Shown here: in pieces, positions 76-51,593 of the stretch
How the letters are laid out: every line of letters starts with the position of its first letter
Numbering within the stretch: position 1 is the stretch's first letter
Origin: Microbacterium imperiale
GTDB taxonomy: Bacteria; Actinomycetota; Actinomycetes; Actinomycetales; Microbacteriaceae
DNA: 64,000 bases
Assembly: GCF_017876655.1 (NCBI RefSeq)
Contig: NZ_JAGIOK010000001.1
Span: 1,488,001 to 1,552,000 of the forward strand
Direction: 5' to 3'
Notes under the pieces: model-generated
What the model was told of the DNA's origin: nothing
The model's database searches: none
The model's input: only the letters and a program-made list of their open reading frames with translations
Translations under genes and position numbers: made by a program

Positions 76-494
76 TACGCGTCGCCCTCCTCGCGCTTGA
101 TGATGCGTGCCTTGAGCGGCAGCTTGTGAATGGCACGGGTCAGGGCCTCGCGAGCGAGCTCCTCGTTGACACCGGCGACCTCGAAGAGGACGCGACCCGG
201 CTTGACGTTCGCGACCCACCACTCCGGCGAACCCTTACCGGAACCCATGCGGGTTTCGGCCGGCTTCTTGGTCAGCGGTCGGTCGGGGTAGATGTTGATC
301 CACACCTTGCCGCCACGCTTGATGTGACGCGTCATGGCGATACGAGCGGACTCGATCTGACGGTTCGTCACGTAAGCGGGCGTGAGAGCCTGGATGCCGA
401 ACTCGCCGAAGGAGACCTTCGTGCCGCCGGTGGCCTGGCCATCGCGCTTGGGGTGGTGCTGCTTGCGGTACTTGACCTTGCGGGGGATAAGCAT
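75..494 (-). CDS. rplP: 50S ribosomal protein L16
   Basis: L16 (139 aa) is a large-subunit protein that helps form the A-site tRNA binding region and the peptidyl transferase environment. The sequence starts [19 protein letters not shown], the family hallmark, and the length is normal. Its ATG overlaps the rpsC stop by one base (TGATG) and its stop overlaps the rpmC start, so it is translated as part of a continuous S10 operon. Nothing is unusual in the sequence. Confidence 0.98.
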
Positions 495-35427: not shown

Positions 35428-35501
35428 AACTCCTCAGATCTATCCGGGCACCGGTCTGGACGGGGTGCCTAACGCCCGCGGCGACCGGTTTTTGAGGAGT
35501 T
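35428..35501. repeat. 74-bp palindromic repeat element, intergenic copy
   Basis: The element starts AACTCCTCA (35428-35436) and ends TGAGGAGTT (35493-35501), perfect 9-bp inverted ends. Inside the left end is GATC, and an ACCGGT stretch occurs towards each end. It fills the gap between two convergent genes and, with TTTTT before the right end, may act as a bidirectional terminator. A second element of 73 bp with the same ends lies at 51087-51159. Confidence 0.8.
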
Positions 35502-42161: not shown

Positions 42162-43682
42162 ATGTCCATCGCACAGACGCGCCCCACCCCCGGTGCCGCC
42201 AAGACGATCATCGGCGAGCCCGAGGTCGTCGAGGACGGCGCCGCGATCGACGCCGCGGGCATCGCGCTCGCCGCCGACGTGGAGCACGACCCCGCCTGGA
42301 TCGCGCTGCGCGATGCCGCGACGGCTCTGCAGACCCTGCAGGCTGCCGACGGCTCGGTGCCCGACCCCGGCGACCGGGACACGGCGCGACGACACGTCGC
42401 GGCGATCACCGCCGCGATCGAACGGCTCGCGCCGCGGTTCCCGCACGACAGCGCGTACCTCGCCGCCTCGATCCGGGACTTCGAGCGATGGGCCGGCCCG
42501 GGCGATCCGGGCGAAGCGGTGTCGACGGAGGGGGCGTTCGGCGTGCCCGATTTCCTCGACTCGCTCCTGGCCTTCCAGCCGCAGCAGCACCGCGTCGACG
42601 GCATCCGGCATCTCGTCGTGTTCCCGATGTACACGCAGAACGGCTCGCGCGACCGGCACGTCGAGGCGCTGCTGGTCGAGGCGATCTGGCCGGAGGAGAT
42701 CGCCCGGCTCGAGACGATGTACGCGAATCGTCTGTTCGTGTCGTTGCGGCTGCTCGACTTCACGGCCGGATACGACACCGACTCGGCCGTGCTGTTCCCC
42801 GAGACGGTCGCGATGCGCGAGATCCCGACCTTCACGTGGGGCGCGATCTTCCAGGACCGTGAGGCCGCGCGCTACCGACGCGTCGTCGCCGCGGCATCCG
42901 AGATCACCAAGCTCGACCTGCCCGCCGAGGCGGCGGAGATGCTCGACGACCAGGCGCTCACCGAGCGGGCGTTCGTCATGTGGGATCTCATCCACGACCG
43001 CACGCACATGCGCGGCGACCTGCCGTTCGACCCGTTCATGATCAAGCAGCGGATGCCGTTCTTCCTGTACTCCCTCGAAGAGCTGCGGTGCGACCTGACG
43101 GCGTTCCGCGAGTGCGTCGCCCTCGAGCGGAGCCTGGGCGCCGAGCCCGGCCTCGACCCGGTGGATGCCGAGCTGCTGCGGCTGTCGCGACTGGTGCAGT
43201 ACGCCGTGATCTTCGACCGGATCTTCCGGTTTGCCATCACGGGGACGCGGGTGCGCAACTACGACGGGCTCGGCGGCCAGCTGCTGTTCGCGTGGCTGCA
43301 CCGGCGCGGCGTGCTGCACTGGACCGACACGGCGCTCGCGTTCGATTGGCGGGAGGTGCCGGATGCCGTCGTCGCCCTGGGCGACGCGATCGACCGCCTG
43401 TACTGGGAGTCGATCGACCGGCCCAAGACGGCGCACTGGCTCGCGGCGTACGAGCTCGTGCGGTCGGTGCTCGAACCGCACCCGGCGTCGGTGTGGGCGC
43501 GCGGGCTGCCGGAGGAGGTGCTCGCCGGTCCGCCGAAGGGCTTCACCGACGCCGTGCTCGACGACGAGTTCCCGCTGTCGATGTTCTACGAGGCCCTCGA
43601 GAAGAAGATGCGCGACGTCATCGCATCGACCCGCGGTATCCGCGGGACGACGACGACACCGACCCGCGGCATCCGCGGCTGA
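42162..43682 (+). CDS. DUF6421 family protein
   Basis: This 506-aa protein matches the uncharacterised DUF6421 family of actinobacteria, recognised from HLVVFPMYTQNGSRDRHVEA, the LDFTAGYDTDSAVLFPETVA segment and the PFDPFMIKQRMPFFLYSLEE segment. A WDLIHDRTHMRGD region looks conserved and could be an active or metal site. The ATG at 42162 has GGAGG seven bases upstream; an earlier open frame is rejected. The C-terminus ends with a repeated TRGIRG tail. It is followed by threonine aldolase after 47 bp, possibly as one transcript. The function is unknown. Confidence 0.8.
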   Translation: MSIAQTRPTPGAAKTIIGEPEVVEDGAAIDAAGIALAADVEHDPAWIALRDAATALQTLQAADGSVPDPGDRDTARRHVAAITAAIERLAPRFPHDSAYLAASIRDFERWAGPGDPGEAVSTEGAFGVPDFLDSLLAFQPQQHRVDGIRHLVVFPMYTQNGSRDRHVEALLVEAIWPEEIARLETMYANRLFVSLRLLDFTAGYDTDSAVLFPETVAMREIPTFTWGAIFQDREAARYRRVVAAASEITKLDLPAEAAEMLDDQALTERAFVMWDLIHDRTHMRGDLPFDPFMIKQRMPFFLYSLEELRCDLTAFRECVALERSLGAEPGLDPVDAELLRLSRLVQYAVIFDRIFRFAITGTRVRNYDGLGGQLLFAWLHRRGVLHWTDTALAFDWREVPDAVVALGDAIDRLYWESIDRPKTAHWLAAYELVRSVLEPHPASVWARGLPEEVLAGPPKGFTDAVLDDEFPLSMFYEALEKKMRDVIASTRGIRGTTTTPTRGIRG

Positions 43683-48343: not shown

Positions 48344-48388
48344 CGCAGGGCGCCGGGCGCGCGGCGCGGCACCCTCAGCGCAGAGCGC

Positions 48389-49000
48389 TCAGCGCAGCGC
48401 GCCGACCGAGGCGAGGGCCAGGCGGATGAGGGTGCCGCGGCCGCCCTCCATCTCGGCCGCGAGCGCGTCGGACGCGGCCTCCGCCGGATCGAGCCACGTG
48501 ACCTCGAGGGCGTCCTGCCGCGGCTCGCAGGTGCCCGTGACCGGCACGACGAACGCGAGCGAGACGGCGTGCTGCCGGTCGTCGTGGAAGGCGCTGACGC
48601 CGGGGATCGGGAAGTACTCGGCGACGGTGAACGGCGTCGGCGAGGCCGGCAGCAGCGGGAACGCCATCGGCCCCAGGTCGTTCTCGACGTGGCGGAAGAG
48701 GGCGTCGCGGATCGTCTCGCCGTAGCGCACGCGACCCGACACGATCGTGCGCGTCATCTCGCCCACCGGTGTCGCGCGCAGCAGGATGCCGACCTGCGTG
48801 ACGGCGCCGAGGCCGTCGGTGCGCACCGGCACCGCCTCGACGTACAGCATGGGTAACCGGCGGCGGGCCTCGGTCAGCTCGACGTCGCTGAGCCAGGCCG
48901 GGTTCGCCGCCCCGCCACCGGGAGCGCCCCGCAGCGGATCGACGGGCAGCGAGGACGCGTCGCCCTCGTCGGGATCGGGGTCGGGGGTGCGCACGGCCAT
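48389..49000 (-). CDS. DUF4916 family NUDIX-like protein
   Basis: This 203-aa protein has a Pro/Asp-rich N-terminal tail (about 1-38) and a NUDIX-like fold. The region GRVRYGETIRDALFRHVENDLG resembles a NUDIX box in which one of the conserved Glu positions is changed, so hydrolase activity is uncertain. MLYVEAVPVRTDGLGAVTQVGILLR is characteristic of DUF4916. The ATG at 49000 (MAVRTPDPDPDEG) is chosen; the longer open frame is rejected. It is divergent from the carboxylesterase gene. Confidence 0.8.
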   Translation of the reverse strand: MAVRTPDPDPDEGDASSLPVDPLRGAPGGGAANPAWLSDVELTEARRRLPMLYVEAVPVRTDGLGAVTQVGILLRATPVGEMTRTIVSGRVRYGETIRDALFRHVENDLGPMAFPLLPASPTPFTVAEYFPIPGVSAFHDDRQHAVSLAFVVPVTGTCEPRQDALEVTWLDPAEAASDALAAEMEGGRGTLIRLALASVGALR

Positions 49001-49937: not shown

Positions 49938-51593
49938 ATGCCCCATCCCACTCCCGCGGTCGTGCTCGACCGCATCACCCACATCTGGCCCGACGGGACG
50001 ACCGCGCTGCGCGAGGTCTCGGGCGCGTTCGGTGCCGGACGCACCGGCCTCGTCGGCCGCAACGGCTCCGGCAAGACGACGCTTCTGCGGCTCATCGCGG
50101 GCGCGATCGCCCCGGGCTCCGGCACCGTCAGCGCGGCCGGACGCGTCGAGCTCCTGCCGCAGCGCCTGACCCTCGACGTCGATCGTCGCGTCGCCGACCT
50201 CGTCGGCGTCGCGGCCGTCGTCGACGCCGTCCGCGCCGTCGAGGACGGCGACGTGGATCCGCGCCACTTCGACACGATCGGCGATGACTGGGACGCCGAG
50301 GCCCGAGCGACGGCCGCCCTCGCCGCCGCGGGCCTGCCGCCGGGAGCGCTCGATCGTCGTGTCGGCGAGCTCTCGGGCGGAGAGGCGGTGCTCGCGGCGC
50401 TCGTCGGGGTGCAGCTGCGCCGCGCCGAGGTGGCACTGCTCGACGAGCCCACGAACAATCTCGACCGTGACGCACGCGAGCGGGTCGTCGAGATCGTGCG
50501 GTCGTGGCGCGGCGCCCTCATCGTCGTGAGTCACGACACCCGGCTGCTCGAGCTGATGGACGACACCGCCGAGTTGTACGGGTCAGAGCTCACCGTGTAC
50601 GGCGGCCCCTACTCCGCCTGGCGCGCGTGGCGGGACGCCGAGCAGGAAGCCGCGCGCGCCGCCGAGACCGCCGCGGCGTCAGCGCTGCGCCGCGAGAAGC
50701 GCGACCGGATCGAGACCGAGACCACCCTGGCCCGACGCGCAGCGATGGGAGCCAAGGCCCAGCGCGAGAAGCGGGTGCCGGGGATCGTCGCGGGCAACCG
50801 CGCCTCGGCCGCGCAGGTGTCGGCCGGGAAGGTCCGCGGTGCGGCATCCGATCGCGAGGCGACGGCACGCGCCGCCCTCGACGCCGCCGGCCGCCGGGTG
50901 CGCGACGACGACGCGGTGCGGATCGACCTGCCCGATCCCGGGGTCGCCGCGGGCCGCCGCATCGCGACCATCGCCGACGGCGAGCGCTCGTGGGTCGTGC
51001 AGGGCCCCGAGCGGGTGGCGGTCGTGGGGCCGAACGGCGCCGGCAAGACGACGCTGCTCGAGCGGCTCGTCGGGTCGGCGCGCGCCAACTCCTCAGATCC
51101 GGCCGCCCCCGCGCCGGAGAGCCCGGATACGGCCGCCGACGAGCGGGAAGTGAGGAGTTACGGCACGGCGGTCGCGCACACCGACCGGGTCGGGTACCTC
51201 TCGCAGCGCGTCGACGGGCTGCGAGACGGCGACACGGTGCTCGAGAGCGTGCGGGCAGCGGCTCCCACGGCCACCGACGCGGAGCTGCGCAATCGGCTCG
51301 CCCGGTTCCTGCTCCGCGGCGACACCGTGATGCGGCCGGTCTCGGCGCTGTCAGGCGGGGAACGGTTCCGGCTCGCCCTCGCGCGCGAGCTGCTCGCCGA
51401 CCCGCCACCGCAGCTGCTCGTGCTCGACGAGCCGACGAACAACCTCGACCTCGACACCGTCGATCAGCTCGTCGACGCGCTCGCGGCCTACCGGGGCGCT
51501 GTCCTCGTCGTCAGCCACGACGAGGACTTCCTCGCCCGGCTGGAGCCGACGCTCACGCTTGAGGTGCGCGAGGGCCGGGTGACCGAGAGCTGA
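49938..51593 (+). CDS. ABC-F family ATPase (ribosome-associated type)
   Basis: This 551-aa protein has no membrane part and two ATP-binding domains, as in ABC-F translation factors and antibiotic-resistance proteins. The first domain shows GRNGSGKTT, LSGGE and LLDEPTNNLD; the second shows GPNGAGKTT, LSGGERFRLALA and VLDEPTNNLDLD. A charged inter-domain region follows the first ATPase. In the second domain about 24 extra residues, between LLERLVGSA and RVGYLSQR, come from an inserted palindromic DNA element. GAGGAGG lies upstream of the ATG (MPHPTPAVVL). Whether it protects ribosomes from a drug is unknown. Confidence 0.92.
   Translation: MPHPTPAVVLDRITHIWPDGTTALREVSGAFGAGRTGLVGRNGSGKTTLLRLIAGAIAPGSGTVSAAGRVELLPQRLTLDVDRRVADLVGVAAVVDAVRAVEDGDVDPRHFDTIGDDWDAEARATAALAAAGLPPGALDRRVGELSGGEAVLAALVGVQLRRAEVALLDEPTNNLDRDARERVVEIVRSWRGALIVVSHDTRLLELMDDTAELYGSELTVYGGPYSAWRAWRDAEQEAARAAETAAASALRREKRDRIETETTLARRAAMGAKAQREKRVPGIVAGNRASAAQVSAGKVRGAASDREATARAALDAAGRRVRDDDAVRIDLPDPGVAAGRRIATIADGERSWVVQGPERVAVVGPNGAGKTTLLERLVGSARANSSDPAAPAPESPDTAADEREVRSYGTAVAHTDRVGYLSQRVDGLRDGDTVLESVRAAAPTATDAELRNRLARFLLRGDTVMRPVSALSGGERFRLALARELLADPPPQLLVLDEPTNNLDLDTVDQLVDALAAYRGAVLVVSHDEDFLARLEPTLTLEVREGRVTES
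51087..51159. repeat. 73-bp palindromic repeat element inside the ABC-F gene
   Basis: It begins AACTCCTCAGATC (51087-51099) and ends GTGAGGAGTT (51150-51159), the same ends as the intergenic copy at 35428-35501. It keeps the frame open and encodes roughly NSSDPAAPAPESPDTAADE followed by REVRS. Confidence 0.8.

Follow-up and report, generated by a model that had tools for sequence, protein, structure and literature searches.

The window analyzed here is a 64,000-nucleotide stretch of the Microbacterium imperiale genome (G000; contig NZ_JAGIOK010000001.1, positions 1,488,001 to 1,552,000), and it contains an ABC-F ATPase gene whose reading frame passes through a 73-bp palindromic element. The element has exact inverted ends (AACTCCTCA...TGAGGAGTT), and the same ends delimit a 74-bp copy elsewhere in the window (Table 1). 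The original prediction of such a repeated segment was correct: the paired-end pattern AACTCCTCA/TGAGGAGTT had no match in 100 shuffled windows. The ends are common to the repeats that flank a nuclease gene of the same genome, and we interpret the insert as one of the genome-wide bipartite recognition sites of this chromosomal AbiEi-EDxHD nuclease, a reading to which, mechanism included, we assign a probability of roughly 0.7.

Table 1. Features of the ABC-F locus and of the second element copy in the window
Feature	Position	Strand	Remarks
ABC-F ATPase gene, 565 aa; the element lies after Walker A of domain 2 and before the RVGYLSQ segment	49896..51593	+	ABC_tran matched in two stretches
Palindromic element within the ABC-F gene, 73 bp	51087..51159		Exact ends; orthologous in Microbacterium sp. 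cf332
Left half-site: AACTCC core and putative specificity triplet TCA (codons N398 S399 S400)	51087..51095	+	Triplet shared with the elements flanking the genome's own nuclease at C1:1141262
Right half-site core, inverted copy	51151..51159	-	Exact inverted repeat; translated V-R-S
Second window copy, 74 bp, intergenic	35428..35501		Exact ends; cf332 orthologue has identical ends and a different interior

The element and its copies in the genome

As had been proposed, the ABC-F insertion keeps the frame open, with AAC TCC TCA forming codons 398 to 400 and the right arm read as V-R-S-Y. The best NCBIfam match of the protein is ribo_prot_ABC_F (289.6 bits, under its cut-off of 380), and ABC-F matches were obtained in 59 of 59 sampled genomes of the genus, the weaker of them possibly being other ABC-F paralogues. 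Orthologues without a recognizable element are approximately 40-75 nt shorter at the place of the insert. The codons at the element ends are rare ones, TCA accounting for 2.3% and AGT for 0.85% of serine codons and AGG for 1.3% of arginine codons in 39 open reading frames of the window; the ends are therefore taken to be kept at the DNA level. The ABC-F copy is likely an old in-frame insertion, tolerated as a flexible linker.

The further copies expected in the host genome were found: 12 have exact ends, 13 fit the looser pattern AACTCC..GGAGTT, and an additional 86-bp copy at about C1:2013221-2013306 was located via the relative cf332. Among the 13 copies (a count that omits the 86-bp one), 11 are intergenic, five sit between converging genes, and two are coding, one within the ABC-F gene and the other within a gene of the YbdD/Sel_put family, each in frame. 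In the latter case the element makes up the N-terminal part of the protein in two species, M. imperiale and cf332 (L006:1486-1779 and L253:1486-1779). Outside cellular genomes, the AACTCCTCA..TGAGGAGTT (TCA) pattern also has two carriers among IMG/VR viral contigs (L291, L292).

The two window copies resemble each other only over their initial 13 bp (AACTCCTCAGATC) and final 9 bp; the match originally reported between them thus stands for the ends, and the interiors are unrelated. Interior identity within the genome has a median of 0.59, shuffled interiors giving a mean of 0.57, and the neighboring copies at 2769639 and 2770254 (0.85) are a clear exception. In cf332 each window copy has an orthologue whose ends are perfect and whose interior has diverged, in surroundings whose matches are 80-89% identical. 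Two of three copies at first seen only in cf332 were traced: one corresponds to the 86-bp copy of M. imperiale, and the other lies where the alignment of the two genomes stops. Where alignment is good, arms are better conserved than interiors; pooled over 31 pairs, including swapped cassettes and poor alignments, identity was 0.72 for arms, 0.61 for inner positions and 0.62 for flanks. An Rfam scan of the window returned no match at gathering thresholds, and neither an interior sequence consensus nor an RNA fold was found.

The survey of element architecture covered 138 distinct elements whose triplets match, and it admitted all lengths between 40 and 120 bp; not every element is independent, since the set includes tandem duplicates and orthologues and many of its members lie near nuclease genes. 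Lengths fall into discrete groups, with 13 elements at 63-64 bp, 112 at 73-75 bp, eight at 85-87 bp and two at 95-96 bp, plus single elements of 70, 76 and 78 bp, and none of the 138 measured 65-69, 79-84 or 88-94 bp. One orthologous pair consists of an 86-bp and a 74-bp element. The 73- and 74-bp elements show A/T enrichment at positions 12, 22 and 32-33, with a period of about 10 bp (0/500 permutations for each length), and the same phasing appears in 53 elements of other families (0/500), the AACGTC family alone giving 12/500. Inverted symmetry reaches about 6 bp outward, so that the half-sites comprise approximately 20-23 bp. Because the lengths change in steps of about one helical turn and A/T is phased at about 10 bp, the element looks like two half-sites placed on one face of bent DNA. 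Exact AACTCC-type copies number from 0 to 22 per genome. In one genome (G074), AACTCC-type elements are near neighbors, 20-32 bp apart, in four places (e.g., L089:1950-2117), with TGCA-type beside TCA-type elements; two repeat families may travel together there.

A nuclease gene bracketed by the repeats

In M. imperiale and two other genomes (G013 and G074), element pairs flank one shared gene, located next to an adenosine deaminase gene. Its protein matches DUF559 above the cut-off, MTES_1575 below the cut-off and, in two of the three genomes, AbiEi_4 weakly. Residues 6-163 have the AbiEi-antitoxin fold (a winged helix and a second domain), with likeness to 6y8q and 1zel, and are fused to a homing-type nuclease domain that belongs to the EDxHD/Vsr type by both its fold and its catalytic residues, which are invariant in 70 of 70 sequences. 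Relatives of the protein occur in 56 of the 59 genus genomes, at one to nine per genome. The nuclease gave no match in phage records, four weak ones in plasmid records and weak matches at most with PADLOC and PHROGs. Its six immediate neighbors in the three genomes, which encode an alpha/beta hydrolase, an epimerase and adenosine deaminase, comprise no nucleotidyltransferase toxin (DUF1814/AbiEii).

Palindromes are concentrated around these genes: at 70 nuclease loci, 47 lie within 450 bp of the gene (69.6 kb of sequence), compared with three in the other 179.7 kb. A stricter test demanded palindromes with similar arms on the left and on the right; here 53 of the 70 loci scored above the best of 127 sham placements, as did 62 of 80 loci in a second set, nearly all from named Microbacterium species and overlapping the first set in some genomes. 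Among 30 nuclease loci outside the genus, taken from genomes of other families, 12 exceeded the maximum of 108 wide-scan controls, three of them barely (34.0 against 33.0) and one of these three without similar arms; sham and wide-scan controls were Microbacterium DNA throughout, also for the non-genus loci.

The arms vary with the nuclease, their types including AACTCC-TCA, -TTC, -ACG, -TGA, -TGC and -GGA, AACGTC-GCC, AACGACGCC and ATTCAGGAG, among others. Even within M. imperiale a second AbiEi-EDxHD nuclease (L134, G000:C1:1157100-1161900) is bracketed by a different repeat, CCGTCSACAGGCTSAG, to which the best matches in the window have two mismatches. More distant paralogues in G014 and G065 (L163, L161) are bracketed by very different repeats (TGACGATTCRCGGAG; TCCGCAGG/CTGCAGG), and the repertoire is therefore wider than the AACTC group. 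Beside a nuclease gene of G070 (L150:2996-3664), four elements of 85-86 bp (AACTCCGCC) start 184-200 bp apart.

Covariation between protein and arms was evaluated in 56 of 127 distinct nucleases, namely those with the core AAxTC[CA] at least three times in their arms. Of all protein columns, residues 81, 78 and 80 covary most strongly with the triplet. Among nuclease pairs that are less than 58% identical elsewhere and agree in four or five of residues 77-81, 22 of 47 have an identical four-base end, whereas the base rate is 7.6% and the median of 235 windows along the protein 8.5%, the window 77-81 being the best. Residue 81 is leucine (in seven) or proline in the eight TGA nucleases, glycine in the AACTCC-TCA, -TCC and -TTC types, and aspartate, glutamate or histidine in the AACTCC-GG types, the TGC types being mixed. 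The winged helix had been expected to be the seat of the specificity residues, an expectation that was not borne out, the strongest columns lying in the second domain. Over 53 loci, nuclease and arm similarity are correlated in a Mantel test (rho 0.26, 0/2000 permutations), with shared ancestry as a caveat. The proposal that the nuclease reads the element ends is strongly supported.

Turnover of the insert in ABC-F orthologues

The original prediction envisaged an insert absent from most homologues. Alignment of ABC-F orthologues bears this out in part: several relatives lack the element, and in many other species the same single place is filled, with ends that depend on the species. This distribution does not look like the outcome of a single recent jump, and neither does the tendency of the ends to track the repeats flanking each species' nuclease. 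The turnover survey searched 29 of 30 genomes, 22 of which gave a match under the strict limit, and the relevant stretch was read in 19 of the 22; for one of the 19 (L284) the part read was the first ATP domain, which does not cover the insert site.

The ends of the ABC-F insert tend to match the nuclease that its genome encodes. Among 26 of the 30 ABC-F loci (the other four genomes having no fetched nuclease locus), the match between insert ends and the arms of the genome's own nuclease averaged 21.65, compared with 15.30 (sd 0.58) after permutation (0/5000). In 12 of the 26 genomes the best match was to the own nuclease, including the element-free G034, where this is due to chance, and in two the own nuclease came second; there was no match in 12, among them genomes with element-free sites and G031-like genomes, in which the ABC-F ends are of another type.

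Individual comparisons illustrate this turnover. G093 and G094 differ in their nuclease arms, and their ABC-F elements are accordingly AACTCC-TCC and AACTCC-GGA, with the right arm, judged by eye, equidistant from the conserved segment. A TCA element is present in the ABC-F genes of G095, where its right arm has decayed, and G097, and the site is element-free in G096, whose sampled nuclease is of the AACTCA-GGA type. Five genomes of the M. testaceum cluster are without an ABC-F element. G108 and G109 (L286, L285) have two tandem palindromic elements in the ABC-F gene, with GTTCCGAAAGCAGGG-like ends of a type not found at their sampled nuclease; the stretch is thereby lengthened to 378-492 nt. 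Flank comparison indicates that nuclease and repeats have been swapped as a block in the pairs L180/L224, L173/L233 and L217/L223, the species being about 90% identical on either side; in L174/L188, the G093/G094 pair, only the right flank is alike. No clean insertion of the present type of element was seen among 30 close pairs of nuclease loci.

Interpretation and relation to known systems

The recognition-site reading is supported by the bracketing of the nuclease gene, the matching of ends and nuclease within genomes, the covariation of residues 77-81 with the triplet, the helical length steps, the conserved catalytic residues, and the presence, absence and type replacement at the ABC-F site. 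Each site would consist of two inverted half-sites, composed of about 6 outer bp, the AACTCC core, the three-base triplet and weakly conserved inner bases. The two half-sites would face one side of the helix, separated by a spacer that is free in sequence, bent and A/T-phased. Two nuclease subunits would bind the two half-sites and then nick or cut, and repair would copy elements onto existing or new sites, resulting in slow spread. Sites could also be rewritten in place to the type of the resident or a newly arrived nuclease, a homing-like conversion. Cutting, copying and homing-like spread by the nuclease are steps that we infer, and simple copying is disfavored by the unrelated interiors of the elements. 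One shared interior is suggestive: the ABC-F element of G094 agrees with a nuclease-side element in 16 of 17 bp, a score reached or exceeded in one of 316 null comparisons.

The main rival, which we consider unlikely, is that the repeats are operators, through which an AbiEi-like protein would keep its own gene and a small regulon repressed by DNA looping between half-sites, with nothing mobile. The promoters of AbiEi and Rv2827c do contain inverted repeats of 23 bp that these proteins bind, at spacings of 3 and 13 bp (PMC7319586), and both the brackets at the nuclease gene and the same-face spacing of half-sites would suit a repressor. A repressor accounts poorly for catalytic residues that never vary, for copies within coding sequence and to either side of the nuclease gene, and for one site that differs in type or is empty between related species.

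A conventional origin, in which an ordinary REP/MITE moved in trans by an unrelated transposase landed in the ABC-F gene by chance, was the original inference, and we now regard it as very improbable. Such elements are likewise short, dispersed, bounded by terminal inverted repeats and mostly intergenic, and 2-bp direct flanking matches are in excess (20 of 125, against a null mean of 10.4 and a maximum of 18 in 300 shuffles). Both REP/RAYT and MITE were rejected, however, because target duplications of at least 3 bp occur at the shuffled level (n=125) and the Y1/RAYT transposase (PF01797) is missing in 58 of the 59 genus genomes, including M. imperiale; the same search was positive in 5 of 14 control genomes, and this family was the only one among transposases to be surveyed. 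The match of the ends to the resident nuclease and their covariation with its residues also point away from a foreign transposase, and a bipartite site of the cognate nuclease is the better reading. RNA-level hairpins or terminators, with stems conserved for folding, are the least credible option: they would explain the inverted ends and the copies between converging genes, but interior folding is barely above that of shuffled sequences (mean z -0.34; 80 of 159 elements tested), lengths step and A/T is phased by the DNA helical turn, and within a genome the end sequence itself is alike, beyond mere complementarity.

Bacterial short palindromic repeats are usually linked to Y1 transposases or left unexplained, and Rickettsia palindromic elements are known to be short, palindromic and located in frame within protein genes. 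The latter differ from the present elements, for which linkage and covariation lead us to propose a cognate nuclease and whose ends vary by species. REPIN-RAYT systems consist of dispersed inverted-repeat doublets, each cognate single-copy enzyme gene being adjoined by its own repeat type, and co-evolution has been proposed (Bertels and Rainey 2011, PMC3116915). The system described here resembles this outline, with inverted doublets adjoining a cognate enzyme gene, but lies outside the group: an AbiEi-EDxHD nuclease takes the place of the defining Y1/HUH transposase, and the site architecture is different, with helically stepped, A/T-phased elements whose exact copies vary widely in number and may be absent.

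The likeness to AbiEi/COG5340 antitoxins of type IV toxin-antitoxin systems lies in the fold and in half-sites of about 20-23 bp, comparable to the paired 23-bp inverted repeats that AbiEi binds (PMC7319586). Here, in contrast, a nuclease domain with invariant catalytic residues is attached, no toxin gene adjoins it in the three genomes compared and the sites are dispersed over the chromosome. EDxHD homing endonucleases such as I-Bth0305I, together with Vsr/DUF559/MTES_1575 proteins, share the catalytic fold and residues; I-Bth0305I is described as dimerizing on a target of nearly 60 bp (PMC3943268), to which the present sites of 63-86 bp are comparable. Unlike a homing endonuclease gene, the nuclease gene does not interrupt its target, as intact palindromes flank it and are scattered in the genome.

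Full-text searches of an open library, which lacks most subscription papers, returned no account of palindromic repeats tied to DUF559, MTES_1575 or AbiEi-nuclease proteins, and a term search in PMC3733652 returned no actinobacterial names. Within that literature the repeat-plus-nuclease system appears to be undescribed, and an earlier description elsewhere is possible. We tentatively propose, at somewhat less than even odds, a new class of resident system, in which a homing-type nuclease with an antitoxin-derived DNA-reading head would maintain, spread and rewrite paired, helically phased sites chromosome-wide, protein genes included; cassette replacement would lead to replaced sites at the old positions, and a five-residue patch would set specificity. 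Here position, architecture and covariation connect a repeat family with an unrelated nuclease; annotations of that nuclease's relatives read antitoxin, hypothetical protein or domain of unknown function. The system provides naturally matched sets of nucleases and targets in which the specificity patch can be read, and it records in-frame insertions into a protein, at a single site, throughout a genus. It also allows one to ask directly whether junk-like repeats are maintained by their enzyme.

Other palindromic repeats were encountered along the way. The comparison of close nuclease-locus pairs showed one palindromic insertion, at L171, where an additional copy of another repeat, itself self-complementary (CCGCGGTCGCTCGGACTCCTGGTCCGAG...), sets the contig apart from close relatives. 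Two other palindromes of 72-73 bp in the window (48366-48438 and 43483-43554), with 12-13 of 14 arm matches, came from the control scan and may reflect chance or other repeat families.
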